Part shown: in pieces, positions 1 to 18,950 of the stretch
How positions within the stretch are numbered: position 1 is the first letter of the stretch
How the letters are laid out: each line of letters begins with the position of its first letter
Assembly: GCF_900087015.1 (NCBI RefSeq)
Contig: NZ_FLKP01000002.1
Coordinates: 248,001-312,000, forward strand
Direction: 5' to 3'
Length of the DNA stretch: 64,000 nucleotides
From: Christensenella timonensis
GTDB lineage: Bacteria > Bacillota > Clostridia > Christensenellales > Christensenellaceae
The notes under the pieces: model-generated
The model's database searches: none
What the model was told of the DNA's origin: nothing
The model's input: the letters and a program-made list of their open reading frames with translations, nothing else
Made by a program: the position numbers and the translations under genes

Positions 1-504
1 CTCCTGCATGATACGCGCCGCAACCCCGGGGTCGGTATGCATACCCGATACGACTTCGACCAATTTCATAATATTCGCCGGATTAAAAAAATGCATACCC
101 AGGAAACGTTCTTTATGGCAAAGCGCGTTCCCGATCGCCGTGATGGAAAGCGACGAGGTGTTGGTCGCGAGGATCGTATCCTCCTCTACGACCTGTTCCA
201 ATGCCTTGAAAATTTCCTGCTTTGCTTCCATGCTTTCATAGATTGCTTCAATAACAAGTTCGCTGCCTGCGCATACGCCAAGTTGATCCGTGAAAACGAT
301 TTGCGAAAGGATTTTTTCCTTTTGCCGTTCGCTGATTTTTTCTTTTTTCACCATATACTGCAGGGAACCTTCTATAATCCCCTTTCCCCGTTCAACATAT
401 TCCATCCCTCTGTCGCAAAGCGCTACCTCACAGTCCGCCATTGCAAAAACCTGTGCAATGGAAGCTCCCATCGTGCCCGCACCGATCACTGATATTTTTT
501 TCAT
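1..504 (-). CDS. hbd: 3-hydroxyacyl-CoA (3-hydroxybutyryl-CoA) dehydrogenase, C-terminus cut by window edge
   Basis: Catalyses NAD(P)-dependent interconversion of acetoacetyl-CoA and 3-hydroxybutyryl-CoA. The visible 168 residues begin MKKISVIGAGTMG, with the Rossmann GxGxxG at residues 8-13. Later come the family patterns ATNTSSLSI and GMHFFNPANIMKLVE, which hold the substrate-binding Ser/Asn/His region. The ATG lies 3 bp after the stop of the upstream crotonase gene, whose last codons carry a GGGGGA ribosome site, so translation is probably coupled. The C-terminal substrate domain lies outside the window. The order thiolase-crotonase-dehydrogenase is the usual clostridial C4 (butyrate) module; bcd and etfBA could follow to the left. 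Confidence 0.93.
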   Translation of the reverse strand, partial: MKKISVIGAGTMGASIAQVFAMADCEVALCDRGMEYVERGKGIIEGSLQYMVKKEKISERQKEKILSQIVFTDQLGVCAGSELVIEAIYESMEAKQEIFKALEQVVEEDTILATNTSSLSITAIGNALCHKERFLGMHFFNPANIMKLVEVVSGMHTDPGVAARIMQE

Positions 505-507: not shown

Positions 508-1269
508 TTATTCCCCCGAAAAATATTCTGTTTTTTCCTTACGGTTGAAACTACGCATGCCCCTCTTCTGGTCATTCGTCAAAAACAACTGTGCAAAATA
601 CATGTTTTCCGTTTCATAGTCGTGACGCTTCATAGATTTTTTGGCGTTGCGTATCCCGAGCGGCGCATTTGCGCACAAGTTTTGAGCCAGTTCCATCACC
701 CGCTCCTCAAACGCATCTTTTCCAAAACATGCATTAACCAATCCACATGCCGCAGCCTCCTGCGCCCCTAATTTTTTCCCTGTGAAAATCAATTCCGCAG
801 CGCGTCCATAGCCAATCAACTCTTTCAGGCGTACCGTACCGCCAAACCCCGGCATGACGCCGAGCGTCGTTTCCGGCAGCCCGAATACCGCGCTCTCGTC
901 GGCAATGCGGATGTCGCACGCCAGCGCGAGCTCCATTCCGCCGCCCAGCGCATACCCGTTTACCGCCGCGATGACAGGCTGTTCCAGCTGCTCGACCATA
1001 TGAAACGCCTCGCATCCCAAACGCGCAAAGGCGTTCGCTTGCTGATACGTCATATTTTCCATCGCGGCAATGTCCGCACCCGCCGCAAAAGCCTTTCCCT
1101 CTTTGCTGCCCGTAACGACCACGCACCGTACATCCTTTTGGCCGTTTATTTTCCTGCATATTTCCTGCAATTCATGCAGCATCCGTTCATTGATTGCGTT
1201 TCTTTGCTTCGGGCGGTCAAGCGTAATCAGCGCAATACCGCCTTTCTTTTCCAGTCTGATTGTTTCCAT
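508..1269 (-). CDS. crt: Enoyl-CoA hydratase/crotonase (3-hydroxybutyryl-CoA dehydratase)
   Basis: Hydrates crotonyl-CoA to 3-hydroxybutyryl-CoA or the reverse. The protein has 253 residues, normal for the family. The two catalytic glutamates are present: E113 in GGGMEL and E133 in GLPETTLG, followed by PGFGGT. The oxyanion-hole segment AFAAGADI is near residue 60. A GTG start 15 bp upstream is possible, but the ATG at 1269 sits 4 bp after an AGGTGAG site and gives the standard N-terminus METIRLEKKG. The thiolase stop codon at 1275-1277 is only 5 bp upstream, so the three genes form one tight operon. Confidence 0.92.
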   Translation of the reverse strand: METIRLEKKGGIALITLDRPKQRNAINERMLHELQEICRKINGQKDVRCVVVTGSKEGKAFAAGADIAAMENMTYQQANAFARLGCEAFHMVEQLEQPVIAAVNGYALGGGMELALACDIRIADESAVFGLPETTLGVMPGFGGTVRLKELIGYGRAAELIFTGKKLGAQEAAACGLVNACFGKDAFEERVMELAQNLCANAPLGIRNAKKSMKRHDYETENMYFAQLFLTNDQKRGMRSFNRKEKTEYFSGE

Positions 1270-1274
1270 ACCGC

Positions 1275-2462
1275 TCACCTGCACAGGGAATCCCGCTCAA
1301 AAACCGTCGCTTCGCCCATTCCGCCGCCGATACAAAGCGTTGCCAGTCCATACCTGCCGTCCCGCTTTTCCAGCTCGTGCAGCAGCGTCACCGCAATGCG
1401 CGCTCCGGATGCGCCGATCGGATGCCCGAGCGCGATCGCCCCGCCGTTAACGTTAACCCTGTCCCTGTTTGCGCCGATCTCCTGCATAACTGCGATCGCC
1501 TGCGACGCAAAGGCCTCGTTCGCTTCGATCAAGTCCATGTCATCTATACCTAGGCCCGTATTTTCAAGAAGCTTCTTTACCGTAGGAATTGGCCCTGTCC
1601 CCATGACCTGCGGGTCGACCCCGCATGACGCGCATCCCAGCCATTTGGCCTGTGGAACCAACCGGTGTTCCCTGACAAAATCCCCGGACGCAACCACCAT
1701 CGCCGCCGCCCCGTCGTTTAAACCGGAGGCATTTCCCGCCGTAACCGTTCCTTCCTTTAAAAACGCCGGGCGCAGCTTGCCGAGCGCCTCTTTCGATGTT
1801 TCCCTGATGTATTCGTCCCGCGCAAAGAAAAGCGGGCCGCCCTTTTTCTGCGGGATCTCCACAGGCAGTATCTCGTTTTGAAAGCGGCCTGTTTGTGTGG
1901 CGCGAAGCGCTTTTTCCTGCGATTCCAACGCGAATTCGTCCTGCATCTGACGCGTGATGCCGTATTGCTGCGCAACGTTTTCCGCCGTCATTCCCATGTG
2001 GCAATCATAAAACGCATCCCATAGTCCCTCGTGTACCATGGAATCCACCGCCTTCATATCGCCCATTTTCTGCCCCCAGCGGATATCCATCGTATGCGGC
2101 GCACGCGACATGTTTTCCATACCGCCGGCAATGATACACTGTGCCTGGCCCGCGCGCAAAAGTGCCGCCGCGAGGTTTATGGCATTGAGGCCCGATCCGC
2201 ATACTTTGTTGATCGTCATGGCCGGGCTTTCCTGCGGGATGCCCGCACGCATCGCCGCCTGGCGGGCCGGGTTCTGCCCGAGCCCCGCCTGCAATACGTT
2301 ACCCATCAAAACCTGGTCGATTTGTCCCGCTCCGATTCCCGCACGCTCATACGCGCTTTGAATGACCAGTGCGCCAAGCTTTATCGCCTCTGTATTTTTA
2401 AGGCTTCCCCCAAATGAACCGATCGCCGTGCGAACGCTTCCTAAAATGTAAATATCCTGCAT
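1275..2462 (-). CDS. thlA: Acetyl-CoA acetyltransferase (thiolase)
   Basis: Condenses two acetyl-CoA to acetoacetyl-CoA or cleaves 3-ketoacyl-CoA. It has 395 residues. The nucleophilic Cys is C88 in NKVCGSGLNAI, the catalytic His is in GGAIALGHPIGASGAR, and the second Cys is in TLCIGGGMG near the C-terminus. The longest frame adds 10 residues, but the ATG at 2462 has AAAGGA upstream and matches the family N-terminus (MQDIYILGSVRTAIG). It is the first gene of the thl-crt-hbd set and is preceded by a 148-bp structured spacer after livM. Confidence 0.94.
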   Translation of the reverse strand: MQDIYILGSVRTAIGSFGGSLKNTEAIKLGALVIQSAYERAGIGAGQIDQVLMGNVLQAGLGQNPARQAAMRAGIPQESPAMTINKVCGSGLNAINLAAALLRAGQAQCIIAGGMENMSRAPHTMDIRWGQKMGDMKAVDSMVHEGLWDAFYDCHMGMTAENVAQQYGITRQMQDEFALESQEKALRATQTGRFQNEILPVEIPQKKGGPLFFARDEYIRETSKEALGKLRPAFLKEGTVTAGNASGLNDGAAAMVVASGDFVREHRLVPQAKWLGCASCGVDPQVMGTGPIPTVKKLLENTGLGIDDMDLIEANEAFASQAIAVMQEIGANRDRVNVNGGAIALGHPIGASGARIAVTLLHELEKRDGRYGLATLCIGGGMGEATVFERDSLCR

Positions 2463-2490
2463 GATTTTTTCCTTTCTTTGCCGGGTAAAC

Positions 2491-2523
2491 AAAACCCGCT
2501 TATCTTTTGGTTAAGCGGGTTTT
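2491..2523 (-). terminator. Intrinsic terminator or attenuator hairpin ahead of thlA
   Basis: A perfect 12-bp stem (arms AAAACCCGCTTA at 2491-2502 and TAAGCGGGTTTT at 2512-2523) closes a 9-base loop. On the minus strand it ends in a T-rich stretch. It lies between livM and thlA, but only 28 bp before the thlA start, leaving little room for a promoter after it. It may therefore reduce readthrough into thlA conditionally rather than separate two operons. Confidence 0.7.
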
Positions 2524-2534
2524 CCTGGGCATCC

Positions 2535-2566
2535 CGTGTGGTCTGCTCCCCACTCAGACGAACACG
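2535..2566 (-). promoter_or_regulatory. Second hairpin of a structured leader upstream of thlA
   Basis: On the minus strand CGTGT-(2 nt)-GTCTG pairs with CAGAC-(1 nt)-ACACG around a 9-base loop that reads AGTGGGGAG. The flanks are C/G rich and could extend the fold. With the adjacent terminator-like hairpin this makes a two-hairpin leader in the livM-thlA gap. I could not match it to a known riboswitch class. Confidence 0.4.
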
Positions 2567-2610
2567 CCGACACCACTGGAGGGTTATTTTCTATTCTGCT
2601 GTTGCCCTGG

Positions 2611-3618
2611 TCATTCTGTCATATTCGCAGTTTTTTCAGTGTCTTTTCCTGTAATTTTAGCAAATAATTTTTTGAAGCCCTTGACGATCGGCTGAATCAC
2701 CCCGTTGGGCAGTACAAATACGATGACGACAACCAGGATGCCGAATACAAGCTGTCTGTACAGCTCCGCAGCACGCAACAATTCCGGCAGGAAGGTTACG
2801 ACCACCGACCCGACGATCGGCCCGATCACCGTTCCGCATCCGCCGATCATAACCGCAAGGATCGCGTTCATGCCGATTCCCGCGGCGAAGGTCGTCGGAT
2901 TTACGAAATTCATATAATGCGCATACAGTACGCCGCCGATGCATCCCAGAACCGCGCTTAATTCAAAAGCCAGCAGTTTTGTACCGGTGGTATTGATCCC
3001 CACAGCTTTTGCCAGGTCTTCGTTTTCGCGCAAGGTTACAATTGCCCTGCCTGTTTTGGATTTAAACAGCCTGTAAACAAACAACAGCGTCAGCACGGCG
3101 GCAATGAGCACGATGTAAAAATATCCTTCCCGGGAGGAAAGCGGCAGCCCCAGAAAATCGCCCTTTAAAGGCGGGATGGAGAAACCCTGCACGCCTCCGG
3201 TTACCTCTTGCCATGCTTTCATGACCGTAAACACAAGCATGGTAAACGCCAGGGTAACGATTGAGAAATAGTGCCCCTTTGTTCTAAGCGACGGGATCCC
3301 GATCGCTGCTCCGACCACCAAACCGATCGCGACCGCCATCAGCATGCCCACCGGCATGGAAAGCCCCAACTTGCTCATGAGCAGGCCCGAAACATATGCG
3401 CCTATCCCATAAAATGCAACCTGGCACATCGATACATACCCTGCATAGCCCTGGATAATGTTGAGGCCAGAGGTCATCACGATCCAGATCAACGTCACAA
3501 TGATCAAATGCAGATAATAGGACGTAGTAACGATCTGCGGCATCAGTAACATGACCACCAATACGATTATTGCGACCAGGCCGGTGATCAGCGACCTCTT
3601 TTTCGATTTTTTCAACAT
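2611..3618 (-). CDS. livM: LIV-type ABC importer permease LivM
   Basis: One of the two membrane permeases of a branched-chain amino-acid-type importer. It has 335 residues and about 8-10 hydrophobic segments. It carries the LivM family patterns GLNIIQGYAGYVSMCQVAFYG, GIPSLRTKGHYFSIVTLAF and, near the C-terminus, MIGGCGTVIGPIVGS. The start has GGAGAAATTCT upstream. It lies apart from the other importer genes, downstream of the first FAD oxidoreductase gene (98 bp gap), so the transporter is interleaved with the enzymes rather than forming one block. The real substrate is unknown: LIV-type systems also carry aromatic acids, amides and other small organics. Confidence 0.9.
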   Translation of the reverse strand: MLKKSKKRSLITGLVAIIVLVVMLLMPQIVTTSYYLHLIIVTLIWIVMTSGLNIIQGYAGYVSMCQVAFYGIGAYVSGLLMSKLGLSMPVGMLMAVAIGLVVGAAIGIPSLRTKGHYFSIVTLAFTMLVFTVMKAWQEVTGGVQGFSIPPLKGDFLGLPLSSREGYFYIVLIAAVLTLLFVYRLFKSKTGRAIVTLRENEDLAKAVGINTTGTKLLAFELSAVLGCIGGVLYAHYMNFVNPTTFAAGIGMNAILAVMIGGCGTVIGPIVGSVVVTFLPELLRAAELYRQLVFGILVVVIVFVLPNGVIQPIVKGFKKLFAKITGKDTEKTANMTE

Positions 3619-3716
3619 AGAATTTCTCCTTCCTTATGATACAATGCGGACGGTTGCCGCCTTAAGTTCTTTCATGAATCAGTCGTGTAAAATCATAAGG
3701 GCTTTTGCGCAATGAA

Positions 3717-5165
3717 CTACTCGCTGATTTTAAAGCCGTCGCCCCATTCTTCCGCGCGGCGCGCATATTCCGCCACCACTTCCGGCGGCACCTGCTTATT
3801 GGTCGTCAGCATGCCCTGATTGTTAAGCTGCCTTTGTACCTTCCGCACGTCCACATCCTTTGGCGATACGCCGTCCTTGACCGCGATCGCCGCAGCGGCT
3901 CCCGCCGCCTGTCCCGTCGTCAGGCTGGGCGTACAATAACGGATCGCGCCCCACGTGATGAAATCGAGCGAGGATGTACCGCCTGCCGCGAGCAGGTTGT
4001 CGAAATCTTTGGAAAGAAGACAACGGTATGGGATATCGTACGGCGTCACATTAAACTTAAAATGATGTGACCCGTCCGGGAAGAAAAGATCCGGCGGCAT
4101 ATTGCAGATGGATACGGAATCCTCAAATGTCCTCGCACCATACATATCTTCTTCCTTCAATGTATATTCGCCGACAATACGGTGTCCGTCCCGAAGAAGC
4201 GCGCACGACGGCGTCTGCTCGATGCGGGAATTTTCAAAGCCGGGAACGTTGTCTTTTAAGAGTTCCCAACACGACCATGCCTGCTTGCGCATATCCTTTT
4301 CCGCATGCGAGACGACTTCTACCTGCCACGGGTGCTGTCCCTTTTCCAATTTATAATAAGGATTGATGATCCATGCGCGTCCGTCCTCATATTCCGTCAG
4401 CAGGCAGGAATTGCGCGGGGAATACAGCTTTCCCTCTGCGCGTGCTTTCGTAAAGAGCTCCTTCCCTTTGACCCAATAATCCCATTGCTCCGGGTTCGCC
4501 TGCGCGAATTCACGGAACTTGTGGTAATCGATATTACGGACGAAAAATCCGTATCCGAGGCCCATGTGCATGCCCTCAAACGGGCCGAACCTGTTGTCCG
4601 GATAACCATTTTCGCCGGTCACACTGGCGCCCGATTTCCATGCGATGTGCGCGATGCCCGTGCAGTCGATGATCGTCTTGCCGAGAACGGCCTGGCGCCC
4701 TTCCAGGCTTTCAATGATTACGCCCTTTAAAGAGTCGCCGTCCACGATCGCGTCTGCTGCCAGCGCATGGAACACAACCTTCACACCCGCCTTCTCCATC
4801 AGGTTATCCACTAAATATTTATAATATTCTCCGTCAAAGAAGATGCTTCCAAATTCATTGGCCCAGTGGTCGCGTACCTGACCCGGGCTGTTCTTATGAT
4901 TCATACCGGCCGCGATGATATCATCCATGATCTCCTGTACGATACCGCCCTGGATCCGGTCGTCCACCCATGCAAAGGAATCATCAAAGGCTGCCGTCTG
5001 GCTTCCGCCAAAAAAACCAAAGCGTTCGATAATGATCGTTTTAGCGCCGTTGCGTGCCGCCGAGATCGCTGCGCCGATGCCCGCCGCGCCGCCGCCGATT
5101 ACAATTACATCCATTTCTTCGCAAAGCAGCGGAACCTCCCGCGAGCTTTCCTGAATCGTTTTCAT
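3717..5165 (-). CDS. FAD-dependent oxidoreductase, paralogue 1 (PF12831-like)
   Basis: A 482-residue flavoprotein of the FAD_oxidored type. The N-terminal dinucleotide site is IVIGGGAAGIGAA (GGG at 24-26), followed by the acidic end of strand 2 (IIIERFGFFGG) and a GGSQTAAF motif. A second conserved block, VDDRIQGG, follows. The C-terminus has the FAD-closing pattern FDNLLAAGG ... GQAAGAAAA (about residue 418). There is no signal peptide, so it is probably cytosolic. It is clearly homologous along its whole length to the genes at 9206-10645 and 10665-12104. The ATG has AAGGAG 9 bp upstream. The substrate cannot be read from sequence; the importer neighbours suggest it acts on an imported compound. 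Confidence 0.85.
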   Translation of the reverse strand: MKTIQESSREVPLLCEEMDVIVIGGGAAGIGAAISAARNGAKTIIIERFGFFGGSQTAAFDDSFAWVDDRIQGGIVQEIMDDIIAAGMNHKNSPGQVRDHWANEFGSIFFDGEYYKYLVDNLMEKAGVKVVFHALAADAIVDGDSLKGVIIESLEGRQAVLGKTIIDCTGIAHIAWKSGASVTGENGYPDNRFGPFEGMHMGLGYGFFVRNIDYHKFREFAQANPEQWDYWVKGKELFTKARAEGKLYSPRNSCLLTEYEDGRAWIINPYYKLEKGQHPWQVEVVSHAEKDMRKQAWSCWELLKDNVPGFENSRIEQTPSCALLRDGHRIVGEYTLKEEDMYGARTFEDSVSICNMPPDLFFPDGSHHFKFNVTPYDIPYRCLLSKDFDNLLAAGGTSSLDFITWGAIRYCTPSLTTGQAAGAAAAIAVKDGVSPKDVDVRKVQRQLNNQGMLTTNKQVPPEVVAEYARRAEEWGDGFKISE

Positions 5166-5239
5166 TGTTTGGTTTCTCCTTGCATTTATATTTGGTTCTC
5201 GTAAAGCTTAAGCCTGTCGTGTTCTTTGTTTTGCTCCGG

Positions 5240-5260
5240 AGGCCCCGCATGGCGGGGCCT
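5240..5260 (-). other. GC-rich hairpin between binding-protein gene and FAD paralogue 1
   Basis: A 9-bp stem (AGGCCCCGC / GCGGGGCCT, 3-base loop) lies 42 bp after the stop of the binding-protein gene. No long U-tract follows on the minus strand, so it is more likely a partial terminator or an RNA-stabilising element. Such hairpins commonly raise binding-protein mRNA over distal genes. Confidence 0.45.
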
Positions 5261-5301
5261 TCCGAAACAGGTCTATATGATGGTGACAATGTGGACTTTG
5301 A

Positions 5302-6681
5302 TTAAGCTCCCGGATAGGTGATCCCTTCCTGTGCGCAATATTCTTTCAGGTAATTGTGCAGGAATTCCGGCCCGATCTCTTTGCCGATCGTGCTTTCGTA
5401 TGCCCAGTTCTGCTCATCCATGCTCCACTTGGAAACCGTGTACGGATGGTAAGCCTGGCCAATGTCGTCAAAGAGCAGTCCGCCGTCAAGAGCCGTATAT
5501 TCTACGATCACCCGCGGGTCAAGGTCTTCCACTTTTACTTCCTTCAGCGCGTCGTTTACCGCTTTCCAGTCCGTTGTACCGGCGTTCTGCATTGCCGCCA
5601 TCAGGATCCAGAAGTTGTCGTATGTGTTTGTCGCCGTCTGGCTCGGGTTCTCCCCAAACTTCGCTTCATACTTGGCAATGAATTCATCGGACTGTTTGCC
5701 GTTTTCGCCGCCTGCTTCCGCAACCTGCGGACGGATCGCATAGCTGCCGTCCATCTGCTCGTTCGTGCAGACTTCCAGCCACTGCGGGCCCGTGCCGGAG
5801 GAATAGGTAACCATCGGCATCGTGGAGCCGAGCTCACGCAGCTGGCGCAGCGCCATAGCGGATTCTTCAATGTTGCCGGCCATATACAGGCCGTTTGCCC
5901 CTGAGTTTGCAATGTTCGTCATCTGTGCGAGCAAATCGAGATCCCCCGCGTTCATCGTTTCCTGCGCCACCACTTCTACGCCAATGCTTTCAAACGCCTT
6001 GATGACGTTATTCGCATGGACACTGTATCCGGTGTCGTTGAAGAATGCCAGGACAGCAACCTTGTCAACGCCCAGTTCGTCTTTGATGTATGTGCAGTCT
6101 GCCACAGGATCATAGCAGTTTGCCGTCGCGCTGCGGAACGTGTTTTCCGGCGAATACAGCAGGATCTGCGGCGAACGCGCGTTGCCGACCAGCATCGTGA
6201 CTTCTTTGCCGGGGATCTGCTGTACGGCGGAGAGCGTCGGTGTGCTGGAGCTCCAGCCCAGGATAAACTGCACCTGGTCAACGTCCATCAGCTTCTGAAG
6301 CGTGGAAACGCCTTCTGTCGCGTCGCTCTTGTTGTCATAGGTCACGACCTCGATGTTGTACATGTCGTCGCCGATTTTGATTCCGCCCGCTTCGTTGACT
6401 TCCGACGCGGCCAGCTCTACGCCGTGCGACGCCGGCAGCCCGTAAGGAGCGCTCGTCCCTGTCAGCGAATCGTCTACGCCGATCTTAAGGACTTTGTTAT
6501 CGCTGTTACCGGCATCCGCAGCGGGCGATGCATCGCCTCCGGACGATGCCGCCGCACCGCCTTCGCTTGCTGCCGGGGCACCGCTTCCCTGTTCCGCCGG
6601 TGCGCCGCATCCACCAACCAGTGCGACGACCATCAGTACAGCCACAAGTATAGCCAATACTTTCAAGTTTCCTTTTTTCAT
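5302..6681 (-). CDS. ABC transporter substrate-binding lipoprotein, LIV/LivK type
   Basis: The extracytoplasmic ligand-binding protein of the importer, 459 residues. The signal peptide is Lys-rich, then hydrophobic, ending in a lipobox (LVGGC), with a low-complexity Ala/Ser/Gly linker after it. The mature part is a type I periplasmic-binding fold (VLKIGVDDSLTGTSAPYG; later AVQQIPGKEVTMLVGNARSP). At 459 residues it is longer than typical LivK (about 370), because of the linker and insertions. A TTG start 9 bp upstream touches the GGAGG, so the ATG at 6681 is preferred. It is encoded between livH and FAD paralogue 1. Confidence 0.9.
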   Translation of the reverse strand: MKKGNLKVLAILVAVLMVVALVGGCGAPAEQGSGAPAASEGGAAASSGGDASPAADAGNSDNKVLKIGVDDSLTGTSAPYGLPASHGVELAASEVNEAGGIKIGDDMYNIEVVTYDNKSDATEGVSTLQKLMDVDQVQFILGWSSSTPTLSAVQQIPGKEVTMLVGNARSPQILLYSPENTFRSATANCYDPVADCTYIKDELGVDKVAVLAFFNDTGYSVHANNVIKAFESIGVEVVAQETMNAGDLDLLAQMTNIANSGANGLYMAGNIEESAMALRQLRELGSTMPMVTYSSGTGPQWLEVCTNEQMDGSYAIRPQVAEAGGENGKQSDEFIAKYEAKFGENPSQTATNTYDNFWILMAAMQNAGTTDWKAVNDALKEVKVEDLDPRVIVEYTALDGGLLFDDIGQAYHPYTVSKWSMDEQNWAYESTIGKEIGPEFLHNYLKEYCAQEGITYPGA

Positions 6682-6742
6682 TCCTTTCAATCCTCCTGTA
6701 TTTTTATTTACTCTTTTCTTTTCAGAAAACTGTTTAACTCAT

Positions 6743-7621
6743 TTATTTGGTAGTCGCGCCGCGTTTGCCGAACAAACCGTTCGGTTTGAAGATCAGCACC
6801 AGGATAATAATGATGAATCCAAACAGGTCTTTATACCCGGCAGAGATAAAGCCTGCGCCCAGGCTCTCGACAATACCCATGATGAGGCCGCCGACAATAA
6901 CGCCGGGAATACTCCCGAGGCCGCCCAGGATCATAACCGCGAAACCCTTCATAACGATATCGCCGCCATAGGACGGGAACATTTGCAGCAAGCTTGTTAC
7001 AAAGATACCGCACAGCCCCGCAAGCGCGCTGCCGATTGCGAATACGGCGCCGCTCGTTTTGTTTACGTTTACGCCGACCATCGTAGCCGCTTCCCTGTTC
7101 TGCGCCATTGCGCGGATGGAACGCCCCAGTTTGGTCTTTTTCATCATAAAGGCCAGCACGCCCATCAACGCCAGGTTGATAATAATGACGTACAGGCGAA
7201 ACGTGGTGATCGAAATCGGCCCAATTTGGATCGACGTATTCCCTACCGCCTGGATGGACACCGGGTCAGGCCCCCAAATCAGCTGGCAGAGATTTTCAAA
7301 GATGAAGAGCAGCCCCAGTGCCAGGATAAAGATATTGATCGGCGGCCCTTTGATGATGACCCGATAACAGTATTTTTCCAAAAACATTCCTAAGAGCGCG
7401 CATCCGGCGATTGCAAGAACTGCGGCGAGGATCCACGGTACGCCGAGCATCCTGGCGAAGGTATATCCGATATATCCCCCTACCATAACGACAGAACCAT
7501 GGGCAAAGTGCGAAATCCCGAGGATTCCGTAAATCTGCGATAATCCCATACCGATCAAGGTGTAAATACTTCCTGTAACGATGCCGTTCACGATTTGCTG
7601 AAGAAGTATAGCATTATCCAT
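6743..7621 (-). CDS. livH: LIV-type ABC importer permease LivH
   Basis: The 292-residue membrane permease that pairs with LivM. It begins with the typical LivH N-terminus (QQIVNGIVTGSIYTLIGMGL) and carries GRSIRAMAQNREAATMVGVNV, the cytoplasmic loop that contacts the ATPases. It ends FKPNGLFGKRG. It has about 8 hydrophobic segments. The ATG has AAAGGAGGG upstream. It lies 49 bp after livF and 61 bp before the binding-protein gene. Confidence 0.92.
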   Translation of the reverse strand: MDNAILLQQIVNGIVTGSIYTLIGMGLSQIYGILGISHFAHGSVVMVGGYIGYTFARMLGVPWILAAVLAIAGCALLGMFLEKYCYRVIIKGPPINIFILALGLLFIFENLCQLIWGPDPVSIQAVGNTSIQIGPISITTFRLYVIIINLALMGVLAFMMKKTKLGRSIRAMAQNREAATMVGVNVNKTSGAVFAIGSALAGLCGIFVTSLLQMFPSYGGDIVMKGFAVMILGGLGSIPGVIVGGLIMGIVESLGAGFISAGYKDLFGFIIIILVLIFKPNGLFGKRGATTK

Positions 7622-7670
7622 AATTTCCCTCCTTTAATATTGATCTGTTTCCTGTCCCCGGAGGGACGTG

Positions 7671-8375
7671 TCAGATACCGAGATATGTTTCCTGAATCTT
7701 CTGGTCCTTGGATAATTCTTCCGCTGTGCCTTCGATTACAATATTTCCGGTCTCCAACACATAAACGTAATCAGCCAGATCCAGCGCCATCTGCGTATTC
7801 TGTTCCACAAGCAGCACCGATTTGCCGCGGCTGTTTATATTCCTGATAATTTCTCCTACTTCTTCCACCAGGATCGGCGCAAGTCCCCAGGACGGTTCGT
7901 CCAGCATCAGCATGTCCGGCCTTGCCATCAGCGCCCGCGCGATGGCAAGCATTTCCTGCTCGCCGCCGGAAAGGGTGCCCGCCTGTTGGTTTGTCCTGTC
8001 CTTGAGCCTCGGGAACCAGCCGAATACCTCTTCGATGGAATCGGAGATCTCATTCTTATCCGTGCGCGTATATGCGCCCATGATCAGGTTTTCATATACC
8101 GTCATCTCAGGGAAAAGCTGCCTTCCTTCCGGGCATAGGGATAACCCGCTTTTGGTGACCTCGTGCGACTTCATTTTATTGAGCTCCGTACCATTCCACT
8201 CAATGCTGCCGCTTTTCGCACGCATCATCCCCATGATCGTTTTCATGGTCGTCGTTTTTCCGGCCCCGTTTGTCCCGATGAGTACCGTGATTTTCCCTGT
8301 CTGCGCAGTGAAGGACAATCCATGCAATACTTCAATGCTTCCATAGCAGGTTACAAGGTCTTTGACTTTAAGCAT
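7671..8375 (-). CDS. livF: LIV-type ABC importer ATPase LivF
   Basis: A 234-residue ATP-binding subunit. It has Walker A GTNGAGKTT, signature LSGGEQEML, Walker B MLMLDEPSWGL and the family ending. A longer frame exists, but the ATG at 8375 follows GGAAGGAG by 8 bp and gives the standard [13 protein letters not shown] start. It overlaps the end of livG by 8 bp, which implies translational coupling of the two ATPases. Confidence 0.93.
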   Translation of the reverse strand: MLKVKDLVTCYGSIEVLHGLSFTAQTGKITVLIGTNGAGKTTTMKTIMGMMRAKSGSIEWNGTELNKMKSHEVTKSGLSLCPEGRQLFPEMTVYENLIMGAYTRTDKNEISDSIEEVFGWFPRLKDRTNQQAGTLSGGEQEMLAIARALMARPDMLMLDEPSWGLAPILVEEVGEIIRNINSRGKSVLLVEQNTQMALDLADYVYVLETGNIVIEGTAEELSKDQKIQETYLGI

Positions 8376-9135
8376 GTTTTGTACTCCTTCCCAGGTAAGC
8401 TTCGATAACAGCTTCATCCTTTTGTATTTCTTCCGGCCTTCCCTCGGCTATCTTCTCGCCCAGGTTCAAAACGACGACATGGTGGCATACTTCCATGATC
8501 ATTTTCATATGGTGCTCTACCAGCAATACGGGAATCCCCCCGTCGCACACCTTACGGATCAGTTGTACCAGGTCGGCGCGTTCGTCCTCGATCATGCCTG
8601 CGCACGGTTCGTCCAGCATCAAAAGCTTGGGATCGGTAGCCATGGCAATGGCAATCATCAGCCTTCTTTGATCAGCGCTGGTAAGCGATCCAGCGCGCAC
8701 TGCCATTTTTTCCTTCAGCCCGACAAATTCCAACAGCTCTTCGCTGTGCTGTACAACGCGCTTTTCTTCCTTGAGCGTACCCGCGATCCCGAAAACCCCT
8801 GTGACGAAATTTGATTTCATCCTGCAATGGTGCGCCGTCACAACGTTTTCCACTGCGGAAAGATCCGGAAACACACTGCTGATCTGGAATGTCCGCGCGA
8901 CACCCATACGCGCGATCTTGTGGGAAGGCATGCCGCTGATATCCTTATCTTCAAATATGATTTTTCCGCTCGTGGGTTTGTGTACGCCCGTGATCAGATT
9001 AAAGCAGGTTGTCTTGCCCGATCCGTTCGGGCCGATGAGTCCCAATATCTGGTTTTCCTCGACATTGAAGGACACATCCTTTACTGCGGCCAGACCGCCA
9101 AAGTATTTTGTTACATTCTCAAAACGGAGAATCAT
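8368..9135 (-). CDS. livG: LIV-type ABC importer ATPase LivG
   Basis: A 255-residue ATP-binding subunit. Walker A is GPNGSGKTT and Walker B is [11 protein letters not shown]. The ABC signature is unusual: where LivG proteins have a YGQQRRLEIARAL-like stretch, this one reads [15 protein letters not shown], keeping QRRL but not the usual S/Y-G-Q core. The start follows GGAGGAATGGTTAA. It lies 70 bp downstream of FAD paralogue 2. Function is probably intact, because the rest of the domain is canonical. Confidence 0.9.
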
Positions 9136-9205
9136 TTAACCATTCCTCCAAATCATTTAGTCTTATGGGCAGCAGATTTGTCGTAGCCAGCTCCTTTCGC
9201 CTGCA

Positions 9206-10645
9206 TCACAGCTTAAGGCCCCTGTTCCACGTCTTTGTCCGCCATTTATATTCCTCTATCACCTCCGGCGACAGTTGTTTGTTCGTCGTGACCATCCCCT
9301 GCTCATGCAGCGTATCCTGCACCTGCTTTACATCGATCTCCTTAGGAGCGATCCCCTGCCTTGCGGCAAGCGCCGCCGCTGTTCCGGCCGCCTGTCCTGT
9401 GCAGATGCTCGGCGTGCAATACCGAAGGGCCGCCCAGGTGACCAGGTCCATCGATGCCGATCCGCCGGCTGCCAGCAGGTTGTCAAAATCCTTGGACAGC
9501 ATAGAGCGGTACGGGATATCGTACGGCGTTACATTATAAACGAACTGGTGGCTTGCATTGGGAAAAAACGGATCCTGCGGCATGTTGCAGCACGCGATGG
9601 AATCGTCGAAGCTGCGCGCGCTTTTCATGTCGTCGTCCGTAATCGTATATTCCCCTACGATCCTGTGACCGTCGCGCAGCAAAAGCCTGACCGGTGTCTG
9701 CTCGATTTTCGCATTTTCAAAGCCCGGGACATTTTTCTTGAACGTTTCCAAAATAGACCATGCCTGCTTACGCTGGTCGATCTCCGCTTCGCTCAAATCC
9801 TCTTCCATCCACGGGTGGCGGCCCTTTTCGATGGGCTTATATGCGCCGATAAACCAGCAGCGTCCGTTTGCATATTCGATCATGAGCGTACTGTTACGCG
9901 GTGTATAAAGCCTGCCCGCTTCCTTTTCCTGTACGAACAGCTTCCTTCCCTTGACCCAATAATCCCATTCATCCACGTTCTGTTCCGCGAATTCGCGGAA
10001 TTTTTTGTAATCCACGCCGCACATCCAAAAGCCATAGCCGAATCCCATGTGCATGCCCTTGAAAGGCCCGAAACTGTTGTCCGGATATCCTTCTTCTCCC
10101 GTCACGGAAGCCCCCGAGAGCCACGCGATGTGCGCAATACCCGTACAATCGATCACCGATTTTGCAAGGATCGCCTGACGGCCTTCATGCGTTTCCACCA
10201 TGATGCCCTTGAGGGAATTTCCGTCCGCGATCCCCGTTGCCGCCGACGCATGGTAAAGCAGTGTTACCCCCGCTTCTTCCATCATCGCTTCAAGCATCAG
10301 TTTGTAATATTCTTCGTCAAAGTAAATGCAGCCCGTTCCCGGATTCCAGTTGTCGCGCATCAACGCCACGCTCGGGTTAAACGTCGCGCCCGCTTTTTTC
10401 AGGCGCTCAATGATCTCCGCAACAATGCCACCCTGGATGCGGTCGTCTACGAATGTATAATTATCGTTATGCGTCAGCGTCTGGTTTCCGCCCAGGCAGC
10501 CGTACTTTTCGACCAATACCGTTTTAGCGCCGTTGCGCGCCGCCGCAAGCGCCGCGCCGATCCCCGCAGGGCCGCCGCCGATCACAACTACGTCAACATC
10601 ATATAAAACCGGTACTTCCTTAGAAGCTTCCAATATTGTTTTCAT
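9206..10645 (-). CDS. FAD-dependent oxidoreductase, paralogue 2 (PF12831-like)
   Basis: 479 residues, colinear with the copies at 3717 and 10665. It has the GGGPAGIGAAL dinucleotide site, LVEKYGCLGGNQTLTHND (motif GGNQT where paralogue 1 has GGSQT and paralogue 3 GGCQT), VDDRIQGG, and the C-terminal FDNLLAAGGSASMD ... GQAAGTAAAL. The open frame extends 49 residues further into the upstream gene, but the ATG at 10645 has GGAAGGAG upstream and aligns with the other two starts (MKTI.EAS.EVPVL). It is 19 bp downstream of paralogue 3. No signal peptide is seen. Reaction and substrate are unknown. Confidence 0.85.
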   Translation of the reverse strand: MKTILEASKEVPVLYDVDVVVIGGGPAGIGAALAAARNGAKTVLVEKYGCLGGNQTLTHNDNYTFVDDRIQGGIVAEIIERLKKAGATFNPSVALMRDNWNPGTGCIYFDEEYYKLMLEAMMEEAGVTLLYHASAATGIADGNSLKGIMVETHEGRQAILAKSVIDCTGIAHIAWLSGASVTGEEGYPDNSFGPFKGMHMGFGYGFWMCGVDYKKFREFAEQNVDEWDYWVKGRKLFVQEKEAGRLYTPRNSTLMIEYANGRCWFIGAYKPIEKGRHPWMEEDLSEAEIDQRKQAWSILETFKKNVPGFENAKIEQTPVRLLLRDGHRIVGEYTITDDDMKSARSFDDSIACCNMPQDPFFPNASHQFVYNVTPYDIPYRSMLSKDFDNLLAAGGSASMDLVTWAALRYCTPSICTGQAAGTAAALAARQGIAPKEIDVKQVQDTLHEQGMVTTNKQLSPEVIEEYKWRTKTWNRGLKL

Positions 10646-10664
10646 ATCTGATTCTCCTTCCTCG

Positions 10665-12104
10665 TTACATCCCGAAGCCGTTGCCCCATTCCTCTGCCCG
10701 GCGCGCATATTCCTCGACGACGGATGACGGCAAATCCTTGTTTGTCGTAACCAATCCTTGGCTATGCAGCTCTTTCTGGAGCTCCGGGACATTTAATTCG
10801 CTTGGCATGATTCCCTGCTTGGCGGCCATCGCCGCCGCAGTTCCTGCCGCCTGCCCCGTGCATACGCTCGGCGTACAATACCGAAGCGCCGCCCAGGTGA
10901 TCAGGTCCATAGAGCTTGCGCCGCCCGCTGCCATCAGGTTTCCGAAGTCCTTGGAAACAAGCGAGCGGTATGGGATATCGTATGGCGTTACGTCAAATTT
11001 GAAGTGGTGTCCACCGTCCGGGAAAAACGGATCCGGCGGCATGTTGCAGCATGTAATCGCATCTTCAAAGGTCGTACCGCCGCGCATATCATCTTCTGTG
11101 ATCGTATACTCCCCGACGATCCTGTGCCCGTCCCTATGCAAAAGCTTGCTTGCCGTCTGTTCGATGGTCGCGTTTTCAAAGCCGGGAACATGCTTTTTGA
11201 GGAGCTCCAGGATGGAAAATGCCTGCTTGCGGATATCCACCGTTGCCAGCGAAATTTGTTCCGCTTCCCACGGGTGGTTGCCTGCCGGGATTGGATAGCC
11301 CGGGCTCAGCATCCACACGCGTCCATCTTCGTATTCCTGGAAAATACAACTGTTGCGGAAGGAATAAAGCTTTCCTGACGCCTTGGCTTCCGTAAACAGT
11401 TTCCTGCCCTTGACCCAGTCGTCCCATTCTTCGGGATTGGCCTGTGCGAATTCACGGAATCTCTTATAGTCCATTCCCCGTACGAAGTAGCCATAGCCAA
11501 AGGCCATGTGCCTGCCTTTATACGGGCCGTATTTATTGTCCTTATAGCCTTCTTCACCCGTACACTCCGCGCCGGCCTTCCATGCGAGATCCGCAATACC
11601 CGTACAATCGATTACCGTTTTGGCGAGGATCGCATGGCGGCCCTGCCAGCTCTCAATGATCACGCCCTTAAGCTCGTCTCCCTCGTGGATGCCGTCTACT
11701 GCAAACGCATGGTACAAAAGCTGTACGCCCGCATCCTTCATCATGTTTTCGAGCATGAATTTGTAATATTCCGGGTCAAAATAAAAGCAGCCTTCTTTTT
11801 CACTCCAATGCGCCTTGTGGGAACCGACGCTCGATTTGTATACCGCGCCGCCCTCATGTAATTTATCGATGATCTCCTGTATCAGCCCGCCCTGGATACG
11901 ATCGTCCACAAACGAGAATGAGTCGTTGAAAGTAAGGGTCTGGCATCCGCCCAAGCAGCCAAAACGTTCGATCAGAATCGTCTTTGCCCCCGCGCGTCCT
12001 GCTCCCAGCGCTGCGCCGATCCCCGCTGCCCCGCCGCCGATCACGACAACGTCCGCTTCGCATAAAACCGGTACTTCCCTGCTTGCTTCCGTAACTGTTT
12101 TCAT
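10665..12104 (-). CDS. FAD-dependent oxidoreductase, paralogue 3 (PF12831-like)
   Basis: 479 residues, the promoter-proximal member of the trio. The N-terminus is VVVIGGGAAGIGAALGAGRAG; the motif after strand 2 is GGCQTLTFND; the C-terminus has FGNLMAAGGASSMD ... GQAAGTAAAM. Paralogues 2 and 3 resemble each other more than paralogue 1 near the C-terminus, suggesting stepwise duplication. The ATG at 12104 is preferred over one 24 bp upstream because AGGAAAGGAAG precedes it and the trio then start alike. It is first in the long minus-strand run with the LIV importer. Confidence 0.85.
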   Translation of the reverse strand: MKTVTEASREVPVLCEADVVVIGGGAAGIGAALGAGRAGAKTILIERFGCLGGCQTLTFNDSFSFVDDRIQGGLIQEIIDKLHEGGAVYKSSVGSHKAHWSEKEGCFYFDPEYYKFMLENMMKDAGVQLLYHAFAVDGIHEGDELKGVIIESWQGRHAILAKTVIDCTGIADLAWKAGAECTGEEGYKDNKYGPYKGRHMAFGYGYFVRGMDYKRFREFAQANPEEWDDWVKGRKLFTEAKASGKLYSFRNSCIFQEYEDGRVWMLSPGYPIPAGNHPWEAEQISLATVDIRKQAFSILELLKKHVPGFENATIEQTASKLLHRDGHRIVGEYTITEDDMRGGTTFEDAITCCNMPPDPFFPDGGHHFKFDVTPYDIPYRSLVSKDFGNLMAAGGASSMDLITWAALRYCTPSVCTGQAAGTAAAMAAKQGIMPSELNVPELQKELHSQGLVTTNKDLPSSVVEEYARRAEEWGNGFGM

Positions 12105-12255
12105 TTTTTTCTTCCTTTCCTGCGACATTTTTCGCTTGGTTTCTCCGTATAATGTGTAACAGAAAGAACACTGTAGTGATGTCTTGCCTTTTGCTACAAT
12201 CCCACGGGCTTTTCCTTATGCAAATTACTATAATGTGTGCTCTTGAAAAACTGCT
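12105..12255 (-). promoter_or_regulatory. Promoter region of the FAD/LIV operon with a repeated motif
   Basis: This 151-bp gap separates dhaL from the FAD/LIV run. The 10-mer TATAATGTGT occurs twice on the plus strand (12148-12157 and 12229-12238), 81 bp apart; on the minus strand it reads ACACATTATA. The copies could be operator sites or include a -10 element for the leftward promoter. No clear terminator for dhaL is visible, so readthrough from the dha genes is possible. Confidence 0.4.
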
Positions 12256-12873
12256 TTATACAAAGCTCCTGAAAATAACGCCGATGGCCACAGCCCCTGC
12301 GTCAGGCCAGTCAATACTCCTGTCCCCAAGGTATGACGCGCGGCCCTTGCTCGCCACGATCTCCTTCGTTTTTTCCGCTCCTTCTTCCGCGCTCTGTGCA
12401 GCCGCTTCCACCGCTTCCTTAAAACTCTTGCCGTCCGCGATCGCCGCTTCCATCGCCTCCTGCGCCGGAATCAGCGCGTCAAGAAGCGTCTTGTCCCCTT
12501 GCTTCGCTCCCCCACGTTTCTGTATCCCCTCGATTGCCGCTTTCAGCATCACCGGTACATCTTTTTCCGTGATCGTCTCCTGCCCCTTTACGGAAAGTGC
12601 AGCCGCCCGGAACGCGGATCCCCATATCGGTCCCGAAGCGCCGCCGCAGTATTCCGTGATGATCATCGCGCAGCCCCTCACAAACTGGCTTACATCCGCC
12701 GTATCAATCTCGTCTATTTCTTTCTTTACTTCTTTGAAACCCTTGGACAGCGACATACCGAAATCCCCATCGCCTGCCGCACTGTCCAGTTCACAAAAAT
12801 ATACCTCATTTTCGATCACAACGTCGCAAAGTTTTGCAATGACCTTCTTTACTTCTAAAGCAGTAATCTCCAT
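12256..12873 (-). CDS. dhaL: Dihydroxyacetone kinase ADP-binding subunit DhaL
   Basis: 205 residues. DhaL holds the nucleotide in PEP-dependent dihydroxyacetone kinases. The three Mg-binding aspartates are at the standard positions (D30, D35, D37 in LDSAAGDGDFG), and GGASGPIWGSAF supplies the adenosine site. It lies 13 bp downstream of dhaK. The third partner DhaM, which brings phosphate from the PTS, is not in the window, so it must be elsewhere or another phosphodonor is used. Confidence 0.92.
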   Translation of the reverse strand: MEITALEVKKVIAKLCDVVIENEVYFCELDSAAGDGDFGMSLSKGFKEVKKEIDEIDTADVSQFVRGCAMIITEYCGGASGPIWGSAFRAAALSVKGQETITEKDVPVMLKAAIEGIQKRGGAKQGDKTLLDALIPAQEAMEAAIADGKSFKEAVEAAAQSAEEGAEKTKEIVASKGRASYLGDRSIDWPDAGAVAIGVIFRSFV

Positions 12874-12886
12874 CCTCTTACTCCCC

Positions 12887-13876
12887 TCATACCTTAAGCG
12901 CCAGCGTATCCGCCGGGCTGTCTAAAAGCGCTTTCAGTTCTTCGTCCAGCCTCAATATTGAAACGGATGCCCCCGCCATATCAAGGGACGTCATATAGTT
13001 GCCCACCAGCGCCTTATGGATGCCAACGCCTTTTTGCTTCAATTCCCTGTGCACGTCCTTATTTAAGATATACAGCTCCATCAGCGGCGTACCCCCAAGG
13101 CCGTTTATAAGCACCGCACATTCCTCGCCGGACTGTAACTTCAGTTCTTCGCAGAGCATATCCGCCATCCGTTTCGCAAGCTTCTGCGACTGCTCCGTTT
13201 CCGTCCTCTCGATTCCCGGTTCCCCGTGGATGCCCACGCCAAATTCCATCTCGCCCTCCGCGATCTCAAAAGTCGGCGTACCTTTAGCCGGTACCGTACA
13301 CGACGTCAATGCAAACCCGATCGTCTTTACGTTCGCGATTACCTTTTCCGCGATGCGCTTTACTTCCCTTAAGTCCTTGCCCGCTTCCGCTGCGGCGCCC
13401 GCGATCTTATGTACGAACATCGTGCCCGCGACGCCGCGGCGGCCGATCGTATAAAGGCTGTCCTGCACCGCGATATCGTCGTTCACATATACGCACTCTA
13501 CTTCGATCCCGTCTTCTGCTGCCATTTCCGCTGCAGCATCAAAATTCATGCAGTCTCCCGAATAATTTTTGATGATCAGCAGCGTTCCCGCATCGCTTTC
13601 CGTCTGCAGGATCGCGTTGTATACCTGAATCGTCGACGGCGATGCAAATACGTCGCCGCATACCGCCGCGCTGAGCATCCCCTTGCCCACAAAGCCTGCG
13701 TGTGCCGGCTCATGGCCGCTGCCCCCGCCCGAGATCAGGCACACCTTGCCCTTGTCAAGCTCCCTGCGCTTTACCACGCGGTAGCGCTCGTTAAGCTCCA
13801 GATCGCCGTCTGCAAGGATGATACCCTCGCACATCTCATCCACTACCGATACGACCTCGTTCATGATCTTTTTCAT
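12887..13876 (-). CDS. dhaK: Dihydroxyacetone kinase substrate-binding subunit DhaK
   Basis: 329 residues. It binds dihydroxyacetone covalently through a histidine: H217 in GVGIHGEPG corresponds to the hemiaminal His. The second active-site His is in GGGSGHEPAHAG (H55). The ATG directly follows the stop of gldA (TAA-ATG), so translation is coupled. Together gldA, dhaK and dhaL convert glycerol to dihydroxyacetone phosphate. Confidence 0.93.
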   Translation of the reverse strand: MKKIMNEVVSVVDEMCEGIILADGDLELNERYRVVKRRELDKGKVCLISGGGSGHEPAHAGFVGKGMLSAAVCGDVFASPSTIQVYNAILQTESDAGTLLIIKNYSGDCMNFDAAAEMAAEDGIEVECVYVNDDIAVQDSLYTIGRRGVAGTMFVHKIAGAAAEAGKDLREVKRIAEKVIANVKTIGFALTSCTVPAKGTPTFEIAEGEMEFGVGIHGEPGIERTETEQSQKLAKRMADMLCEELKLQSGEECAVLINGLGGTPLMELYILNKDVHRELKQKGVGIHKALVGNYMTSLDMAGASVSILRLDEELKALLDSPADTLALKV

Positions 13877-14959
13877 TTACCAGGTACCCCCAATGATGTC
13901 GGCCGCGCGGATTGCCGCCGCTACATCAGCCGGCCGCACCTCAAACGGCATGTTGTCCATCGTCTCCAGATCCGAGCACGCATGTGTCGCCACCCGCATC
14001 AATCTTTCTTCATCCAGTTCCTTTACCCCCAGGTCTGCAAGGCATACCGGCAATCCCAGTGAGCGGCAGAACGCAAGTACCTCAATGATCGTTTCTTCCT
14101 CTGCGTTCTCCAGTACCAGCTGCACCAATGTCCCGAACGCTACCTTCTCCCCGTGGAAATAATGATGTGTTTCTTCAAGTACCGTCAGCCCGTCGTGTAC
14201 CGCATGCGCCGCCGCCAGCCCGCTGCTCTCGAATCCAAGGCCGGAAAGCAGGATATTTGTTTCTATGATGTTCTCCAGTGCGATCGTTACTACGTTCGCG
14301 TCGCATGCCGCTTTTGCCTTGTGCGCATCCTCCAGCAACGTCGCATAGCATGTTTCCGCAATCGCCAGCGCTGCCTTTGTGCTCATACCGCCCGACATGT
14401 TCGGCTTGTTTGCCTTGATACAGGCCCGCGCCTCGAATACCGTTGCCAGCGCATCTCCCATGCCTGAGATCAAAAACCGCGTCGGCGCCTTGGCGATGAC
14501 CCCGGAATCCACCAATACCAGATCCGGGTTCTTCGGCAGGTGCATATACCGCTCAAACTCTCCTGTTTCCGTATAGATGATCGCCAGCGCACTTGTAGGG
14601 GCGTCCGTCGACGCGATCGTCGGCACGATGATTACCGGCTTTTTCGTCAGCGTCCCTGTCGCTTTTGCCGTGTCCAGGGCTTTTCCGCCACCCAGGCCGA
14701 TCACTACATCTGCTTTTTCCTGTTCCGTGAGCTTTACGATCCTGTTTATTTCCTTGTCGCACGACTCTCCGCAAAATGCCGCGTGCACATAATCCGTTCC
14801 TTTCAGCCCCTCGTCCAATATATCTTTCACGCGTTCAAAATCTTCCGGATGCGCGATCAGGACTGCCTTCTTTCCCAATCCTGCTACGTGTTCGCCCAGT
14901 TTCTTCAGCTCGCCTTCTCCCAGTACAAACTTCGATGGGGATATATACGTCCTTGCCAT
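13877..14959 (-). CDS. gldA: Glycerol dehydrogenase (iron/zinc-type alcohol dehydrogenase family)
   Basis: 360 residues. It oxidises glycerol to dihydroxyacetone with NAD. The NAD site is GLGGGKALDTAK; metal ligands are D169 (SGMGDALA), a His in AAAHAVHDGL and a His in HHYFHGEKVAFG. The frame is open 61 residues further upstream, but the ATG at 14959 follows AAAAAGGAGAGACAGGAA and matches the family start. It is the first gene of gldA-dhaK-dhaL, with the PocR/AraC regulator gene directly upstream. Confidence 0.92.
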   Translation of the reverse strand: MARTYISPSKFVLGEGELKKLGEHVAGLGKKAVLIAHPEDFERVKDILDEGLKGTDYVHAAFCGESCDKEINRIVKLTEQEKADVVIGLGGGKALDTAKATGTLTKKPVIIVPTIASTDAPTSALAIIYTETGEFERYMHLPKNPDLVLVDSGVIAKAPTRFLISGMGDALATVFEARACIKANKPNMSGGMSTKAALAIAETCYATLLEDAHKAKAACDANVVTIALENIIETNILLSGLGFESSGLAAAHAVHDGLTVLEETHHYFHGEKVAFGTLVQLVLENAEEETIIEVLAFCRSLGLPVCLADLGVKELDEERLMRVATHACSDLETMDNMPFEVRPADVAAAIRAADIIGGTW

Positions 14960-18856: not shown

Positions 18857-18950
18857 CTGGTGTGCCAGAAGGGATAGCTCGCCCTTCGCTTGCAGCTCGT
18901 GCTTGCATGAACCCCCCGGCCTTGATTCGTAACGACTCCCGAACTATTTC
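18857..18950 (-). pseudogene. tRNA-Arg pseudogene, interrupted in the T-loop
   Basis: Nineteen bases (18857-18875, CTGGTGTGCCAGAAGGGAT) are identical to 29930-29948, the 3' end of the intact tRNA-Arg(ACG). Then 33 unrelated bases (18876-18908) interrupt the T-loop. The match resumes at 18909-18931 through the T-stem, variable region and ACG anticodon arm (GATTCGTA). The D-arm and 5' acceptor strand are rearranged or missing, so it cannot fold as a tRNA. It could be the remnant left at one end of an integrated element or a decayed duplicate. Confidence 0.75.

Follow-up and report, generated by a model that had tools for sequence, protein, structure and literature searches.

Gene content of the locus

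The window analysed here is a 64,000-nucleotide stretch of the 2.65 Mb genome of Christensenella timonensis (G000:C2:248001-312000), and its low-coordinate end carries a minus-strand block of 15 genes, referred to below as the unit, in which three flavoproteins of family PF12831 (FAD1, FAD2 and FAD3) are interleaved with a LIV-type importer and flanked by glycerol-type and coenzyme A (CoA) genes. Open reading frames and family matches place the genes, from high to low coordinate, in the order pocR-gldA-dhaK-dhaL-FAD3-FAD2-livG-livF-livH-binding protein-FAD1-livM-thl-crt-hbd. A preliminary description of the locus, made from the sequence letters alone, had given the same minus-strand order from FAD3 to hbd, and the gene identities proposed in it (three PF12831 flavoproteins, two LIV permeases, two ABC ATPases, a Peripla_BP_6 protein, a thiolase, a crotonase and the start of hbd) agree with the family matches. 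The extent of 508-12104 given there held for the FAD, LIV, thl and crt genes but not at its limits, as it missed hbd at 1-504 and pocR-gldA-dhaK-dhaL at 12256-16412. The hbd gene runs off the window and is complete, at 282 amino acids, in L006, a stretch reaching beyond it. The features are as follows, the species compared being the source, a second genome of the genus (G002) and C. hongkongensis.

15285 to 16412, minus strand: pocR-type regulator, PocR sensor domain plus AraC helix-turn-helix (PF10114, 3e-46; PF12833, 8e-22); in the unit in all three species
14960 to 15284, minus strand: pocR-gldA intergenic region with a conserved promoter-like block (three-species alignment)
13877 to 14959, minus strand: gldA, glycerol dehydrogenase subfamily (NF006941, 515 bits, cut-off 336)
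12887 to 13876, minus strand: dhaK, dihydroxyacetone kinase subunit (TIGR02363, 460.5 bits, cut-off 406.25; GIHGEPG motif)
12256 to 12873, minus strand: dhaL, dihydroxyacetone kinase subunit (TIGR02365, 184 bits, cut-off 138.3)
12105 to 12255, minus strand: dhaL-FAD3 intergenic region with a conserved element (three-species alignment)
10665 to 12104, minus strand: FAD3, PF12831 flavoprotein of 479 amino acids (2.2e-84)
9206 to 10645, minus strand: FAD2, PF12831 flavoprotein of 479 amino acids (3.5e-88); its ATG at 10645 lies 19 nt past the FAD3 stop
8368 to 9135, minus strand: livG ATPase (PF00005 and BCA_ABC_TP_C)
7671 to 8375, minus strand: livF ATPase (PF00005)
6743 to 7621, minus strand: livH permease (PF02653, 2.4e-41)
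5302 to 6690, minus strand: LIV-type binding protein with a lipobox-like N-terminus by eye (PF13458, 2.3e-46)
5232 to 5269, minus strand: strong hairpin 3' of the binding-protein gene, lacking a U-tract (z -5.5)
3717 to 5165, minus strand: FAD1, PF12831 flavoprotein of 482 amino acids (1.9e-84)
2611 to 3618, minus strand: livM permease (PF02653, 5.6e-47)
2485 to 2523, minus strand: intrinsic terminator in the livM-thl leader, stem 2523-2491, AAAACCCGCTTA/TAAGCGGGTTTT; same stem in all three species
1275 to 2462, minus strand: thl, thiolase nearest to acetyl-CoA C-acetyltransferases (TIGR01930, 475 bits, cut-off 240.55)
508 to 1284, minus strand: crt, enoyl-CoA hydratase nearest to short-chain enoyl-CoA hydratases (PF00378, 7e-61)
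1 to 504, minus strand: hbd, 3-hydroxyacyl-CoA dehydrogenase nearest to 3-hydroxybutyryl-CoA dehydrogenases (first 168 codons)

Conservation within Christensenella

The preliminary description had proposed a search of other genomes for the same gene order, and this search, once run, found it in two further Christensenella species. All 15 genes are matched with their order kept in G002, and 14 of the 15 are matched in order in C. hongkongensis, where FAD2, FAD3 and the LIV genes match across nearly their whole length and all that is left of FAD1 is a short remnant, lying between the binding-protein gene and livM (L023 16947-17237); if C. hongkongensis still uses the unit, FAD1 would seem not to be indispensable. 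The flavoenzyme and binding-protein genes co-occur in the same three of six genomes of the genus. In the other three, the unit is absent from the 20 kb fetched beside the shared upstream neighbours, which by eye are a phosphoesterase, a diaminopimelate-decarboxylase-like and a sortase-like gene, with a Fur-like gene in two of the three stretches. The upstream flank is common to genomes with and without the unit, and the downstream flank is common to the window and G002 only. The retention of order (15/15 and 14/15), together with the lack of the unit where it would be expected in the remaining three genomes, makes chance adjacency a poor explanation, as had been claimed earlier.

Ratios of nonsynonymous to synonymous substitution (dN/dS) against G002 range from 0.009 to 0.158 across the 15 genes (FAD3 0.058, FAD2 0.016, FAD1 0.032); in the comparison with C. 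hongkongensis the row labelled FAD1 was a match to another FAD gene and was left out. Identity to C. hongkongensis is 87-92% for the liv genes and FAD2/FAD3, 78% for the binding protein, 74% for PocR and 61-75% for thl, crt and hbd. A description of the 15-gene unit was not found among the matches listed by a literature search, and transporter words were not found in PMC9795900.

Flavoenzymes and their relatives

All three flavoenzymes match PF12831 over the entire profile (1-416 of 416) with 284.6-297.1 bits against a gathering score of 27, and they are the only full-length matches in their own genome (three of five, the other two being short). FAD1 and FAD2 are each 62-63% identical to FAD3, in which a signal peptide is not apparent by eye. 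In a tree of 67 sequences the eight copies of the genus form one set (100/98), whose sister (100/100) is the lone gene of genome G819, at about 40% identity the nearest relative found outside the genus, with a warning from the program that G819 is a long branch. The flavoenzymes derive from one lineage-specific triplication and are under purifying selection. A sequence search of the PDB with FAD3 gave 19 matches, all of them confined to the N-terminal portion that binds FAD and with E values of 1.5e-4 at best. To our knowledge PF12831 is a large family with no known reaction, and a literature search under the names PF12831 and FAD_oxidored found no functional study of it; one paper mentions PF12831/FAD_oxidored amid sarcosine oxidase and MTHFR domains (PMC9045290).

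Apart from the G819 gene, relatives of the flavoenzymes outside the genus stand further off. In a draw from the class, 22 of 391 genomes match at E<=1e-60, the source included, the best other match being 4.5e-78, and in a draw from the phylum three of 398 match at E<=1e-75, again including the source; at most four candidates were scored per genome in both draws. A pattern scan of genome contigs, which may leave out records very near the source genome, confirmed one of 36 candidate stretches, that of C. hongkongensis, and in viral contigs no relative was found.

Fifteen outside loci were compared, a part of those matched and some of them cut by contig ends. At E<=1e-6 no match to livH, to livM or to the binding protein turned up in any of the 15, and L106 holds a single 30% match to the livG ATPase. 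Sugar-type (CUT1-like) ABC parts, meaning a PF00528 permease or a PF01547 binding protein, occur in eight of the 15 (L105, L106, L108, L109, L110, L111, L113, L118), and a TRAP transporter in L107; the fragment tested in L117 is below the cut-off and one permease candidate in L110 lacks a family match. The importer scan covered the loci other than L112, L114, L115, L116 and G819; the G819 gene adjoins a sigma-54 regulator, and no LIV match was found within the 40 kb fetched around it. A Microvirga plasmid relative also lies near a sugar ABC importer. Five of the 15 loci (L106, L108, L110, L111, L117) carry three to five PF12831 genes each, beside short-chain dehydrogenase/reductase (SDR) or zinc-dependent dehydrogenases in L106, L110 and L111 and, by eye, SDR genes in L108 and L117; an FGGY kinase is a neighbour in L110 and a xylose-isomerase-like barrel in L108.

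The presence of multiple PF12831 enzymes in a sugar-type cassette is a recurrent theme, and the pairing of FAD genes with a LIV importer is, as far as seen, a Christensenella variant. The expectation that the two would be associated elsewhere was borne out within the genus, where they are kept together in three Christensenella, but not at the 15 loci compared beyond it. Like the unit, the multi-flavoenzyme cassettes of other Clostridia have at least three PF12831 genes beside dehydrogenases; their paralogues come from several deep clades and sugar-type ABC importer parts accompany four of them (L106, L108, L110 and L111, with the kinase in L110), whereas the Christensenella trio is one young clade accompanied by a LIV importer and DhaKL.

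The LIV importer and its binding protein

The importer set of the LIV (HAAT) type is complete, with two BPD_transp_2 permeases, two ATPases and a Peripla_BP_5/6 binding protein. When the binding protein was aligned, by sequence only, to PDB entries 3ipc and 3ip5, the Thr position was found to be Arg and the Asp position, beside a gap, Ser. These Thr and acidic positions we take to hold the alpha-carboxylate and alpha-ammonium groups of amino-acid ligands. Given the Arg and Ser aligned at both ligand positions, import of an alpha-amino acid was not kept as the default reading of such a system. The earlier remark that LIV importers do not necessarily carry amino acids is strengthened by these two changes and by the company of the nearest importer kin, which lie in CoA-ligase clusters.

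In plasmid records, the relatives nearest to the binding protein are those of Pseudorhodobacter and Paracoccus (35%; E 4e-56 and 7e-56), with Bosea and Cereibacter at 31%, and all four have an acyl-CoA synthetase and an acyl-CoA dehydrogenase or enoyl-CoA hydratase nearby, as known partly from annotation and partly by eye. In these alphaproteobacterial clusters all five importer components are related to those of Christensenella (livF 46-53%, binding protein 31-35%); the importer stands beside acyl-CoA enzymes, no match to FAD1-3 was found in the stretches fetched, and, unlike them, the Christensenella unit has no recognised CoA ligase. The Bosea and Cereibacter clusters presumably resemble the ali/bad cyclohexanecarboxylate clusters. 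Such a cluster comprises a CoA ligase, an acyl-CoA dehydrogenase, an SDR and a ring-opening hydrolase, none of which was recognised in the block. A fifth relative, from Fusobacterium (30%), is in a record lacking annotation, and acyl-CoA neighbours were not recognised there. Of three weaker relatives, two lie beside aspartate transaminase and hydantoinase genes and one beside a xanthine-dehydrogenase-like set; the former, at 27-28%, show that there are amino-acid-linked kin at a greater distance. In the class draw of 391 genomes, again with no more than four candidates scored per genome, no further binding protein reaches 1e-60. A ligand other than an amino acid is favoured by these comparisons, one that may be carboxylated (from the importer kin), polyol-like (from the enzyme kin and GldA/DhaKL), or both.

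Glycerol and dihydroxyacetone genes

GldA, DhaK and DhaL all score above curated NCBIfam cut-offs, which places them in the glycerol dehydrogenase/dihydroxyacetone kinase route, and motifs taken to be the metal ligands are present in GldA. The run pocR-gldA-dhaK-dhaL points to glycerol or dihydroxyacetone. With fermentative glycerol (dha) utilisation it shares gldA, dhaK and dhaL, and it differs in that neither dhaM nor a glycerol facilitator was recognised in the block and in being joined to the FAD-LIV genes. Four dhaK genes are present in the genome, three of them at two other loci, L138 (G000:C2:312001-320000) and L139 (522001-536000), where dhaK is accompanied by genes that by eye resemble those of sugar importers and by an iron alcohol dehydrogenase or FGGY kinase; this suggests several polyol or ketose modules in the genome.

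The thl-crt-hbd genes and transcription signals

The specific families nearest to the three CoA genes are those leading from acetyl-CoA to crotonyl-CoA in butyrate (C4) formation, with scores short of the specific cut-offs: 514.8 bits against 688 for Thl (PRK05656), 246.7 against 394 for Crt (PRK05809, the best of NCBIfam) and 383.6, just below 408, for Hbd (PRK05808, likewise). Thl passes the cut-off of the general thiolase family TIGR01930 (acetyl-CoA C-acyltransferase), and further thl copies are present in its genome. In C. hongkongensis the thl and crt of the block are the only ones in the genome at E<=1e-20, and an acyl-CoA dehydrogenase with adjoining etf genes (etf by eye) lies away from the block; acyl-CoA dehydrogenase genes occur in all six genomes of the genus. 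Both in gene set and in nearest families the trio is like the clostridial thl-crt-hbd butyrate module, with acyl-CoA dehydrogenase/etf elsewhere in C. hongkongensis; it is unlike that module in falling short of the specific cut-offs and in following a LIV gene and a leader that contains a terminator. L006 holds, some 6 kb past hbd at 7933-10147, two genes named by eye, one acyl-CoA synthetase-like and one for a cupin-type XRE regulator; both are kept in G002 and neither was seen in the 12-kb C. hongkongensis stretch fetched, and the synthetase-like gene is a candidate CoA ligase for a beta-oxidation route.

The livM-thl leader (2463-2610) consists of a variable hairpin followed by the conserved terminator, whose window copy ends 28 nt before the thl ATG. 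Folding of the 63-nt terminator piece of the window gave z -3.6 and that of the whole leader z -5.1 in G002 and -4.2 in C. hongkongensis; the whole leader of the window folds weakly better than shuffles (z -1.8, 12 of 200 shuffles as good). An Rfam search of the leader gave nothing near a gathering score, and a generic terminator scan, whose counts do not exceed those of shuffles, passed over this one, whose loop is probably too long for the limit of the scan. The leader is possibly an attenuator or a read-through control, and the unit is not a single operon free of internal terminators. The hairpin after the binding-protein gene has a counterpart visible by eye in the other two species and is probably an mRNA-stabilising element. 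In the pocR-gldA intergenic region an imperfect TACGGTCA-like direct repeat was seen by eye and is a candidate PocR operator; a promoter-like match at 15199-15171 in the same spacer comes from a scan whose match count is no higher than in shuffles. The dhaL-FAD3 spacer contains in C. hongkongensis a dyad, TTGTAGCAA ... TTGCTACA (by eye), and its conserved element is possibly a second promoter or operator.

Proposed function

The reading proposed, at a probability somewhat under even (about 45%), is that the 15 genes form a catabolic island serving a small compound, other than an amino acid, whose breakdown gives glycerol or dihydroxyacetone. The LIV-type importer would bring in a small organic compound other than an alpha-amino acid, and the three cytosolic flavoenzymes, triplicated and then kept distinct, would oxidise, reduce or rearrange it. 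A C3 polyol part, glycerol or dihydroxyacetone, would pass by GldA and DhaKL to glycolysis, with the PocR-AraC protein sensing the substrate or the C3 polyol. Thl, Crt and Hbd would convert acetyl-CoA to crotonyl-CoA, from which Bcd-EtfBA encoded elsewhere would form butyryl-CoA, and excess reducing power would leave as butyrate through an electron sink under its own transcriptional control. Such a butyryl-CoA sink would explain thl-crt-hbd without calling on an unknown acyl-CoA, given the C4 families nearest to them, the acyl-CoA dehydrogenase/etf genes of C. hongkongensis, and butyrate as a product from glucose of C. intestinihominis, as stated in PMC7937921. Of the dedicated uptake and redox route envisaged earlier, the joint retention of FAD and LIV genes stands, but the CoA genes lie behind a terminator and the glycerol genes had been missed.

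Several observations weigh against the island as proposed. The acyl-CoA dehydrogenase of two genomes without the block is not tied to a butyrate route, since at E<=1e-20 neither G001 nor G004 has crt and G004 also has no thl. DhaM was not recognised in the block, a genome-wide search for it not having been made, and PMC7937921 reports API tests without glycerol use for C. intestinihominis, a species not assigned to any genome compared. The importer's nearest relatives are in CoA-ligase clusters, not polyol clusters, and neither CoA ligase nor CoA transferase was recognised in the block. With a terminator ahead of thl and a conserved spacer between dhaL and FAD3, the genes could be transcribed as two or three separate messages. 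Three presences and three absences may amount to perhaps one or two evolutionary events only, because the three genomes lacking the unit share other local genes. AlphaFold2 models of five FAD sequences (predicted local distance difference test, pLDDT, 42) and of two binding-protein sequences (pLDDT 38) were too poor for use.

That the four plasmid relatives of highest bit score (31-35%) lie with acyl-CoA synthetase clusters is what would be seen if an imported carboxylic acid were converted to a CoA thioester, acted on by the flavoenzymes and cleaved by thl-crt-hbd; the place of these genes beside the importer is also expected from substrate beta-oxidation, and they follow livM in three of three species despite a differing downstream flank in C. 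hongkongensis. This route is nonetheless judged rather unlikely: an acyl-CoA dehydrogenase, like the ligase and transferase, was not recognised in the block, thl, crt and hbd are less conserved than liv and FAD2/FAD3 (though PocR and the binding protein are low too), and the inclusion of a CoA beta-oxidation module in the route, as first described, sits poorly with a terminator 28 nt before thl and with best matches to C4 butyrate families, below their cut-offs. A butyryl-CoA electron sink is likelier than substrate-specific beta-oxidation. The conserved terminator, the conserved spacer before FAD3 and the further dhaK and thl copies in the genome would also suit three independent neighbours sharing no pathway, namely a glycerol unit (pocR-gldA-dhaKL), a FAD-LIV unit and a butyrate unit; with the order surviving in three species and the whole lacking at the equivalent position in the rest, such independence is distinctly improbable. 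The flavoenzymes might instead work as reductases, with the imported compound serving as an electron acceptor; it would then be an anaerobic sink for the oxidation of glycerol and not a carbon source. An anaerobic host (the genus being anaerobic, as an abstract states for C. intestinihominis), the three FAD proteins and the NADH that GldA, judged from its family matches, would supply are in keeping with this, but relatives of the enzymes often accompany sugar-type importer parts (8 of 15 loci) and a gene for an electron-transfer partner was not recognised in the block, and we regard this role as very doubtful.

An apparent tRNA-Arg island nearby

Elsewhere in the window, at 18857-29948, an 11.07-kb stretch is flanked by a perfect 19-nt repeat of the 3' end of tRNA-Arg(acg). 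By eye this stretch encodes a surface-type protein of 2451 amino acids and a pair made up of a histidine kinase and a LytTR response regulator, and it is absent from the matching position in G002 and C. hongkongensis. It has the look of an island integrated at a tRNA gene, with no integrase recognised in it. A mobile-island origin of the FAD block by way of tRNA-Arg was considered and rejected, the tRNA-end repeat not being found in the stretches fetched beyond hbd (L006, L025, L027).

Implications

Little is known of the diets of the Christensenellaceae, a much-studied family of gut bacteria, and the block offers a self-contained, testable unit with importer, sensor and end route. It would also be a handle on PF12831 chemistry. 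As a speculative and improbable extension of the proposed island, the trio could carry out a flavin-based, possibly redox-neutral cleavage (oxidise, eliminate, re-reduce) of a conjugate that bears glycerol, for instance a glyceryl ether, a glyceryl ester or an acid substituted with a polyol, within the cytosol of a strictly anaerobic bacterium. Were this true, the glycerol or dihydroxyacetone half would go to GldA/DhaKL, other clostridial PF12831 cassettes would act likewise on glycosides, and the family would gain its first chemistry. The occurrence of multi-PF12831 cassettes in other Clostridia suggests a wider use of the chemistry.

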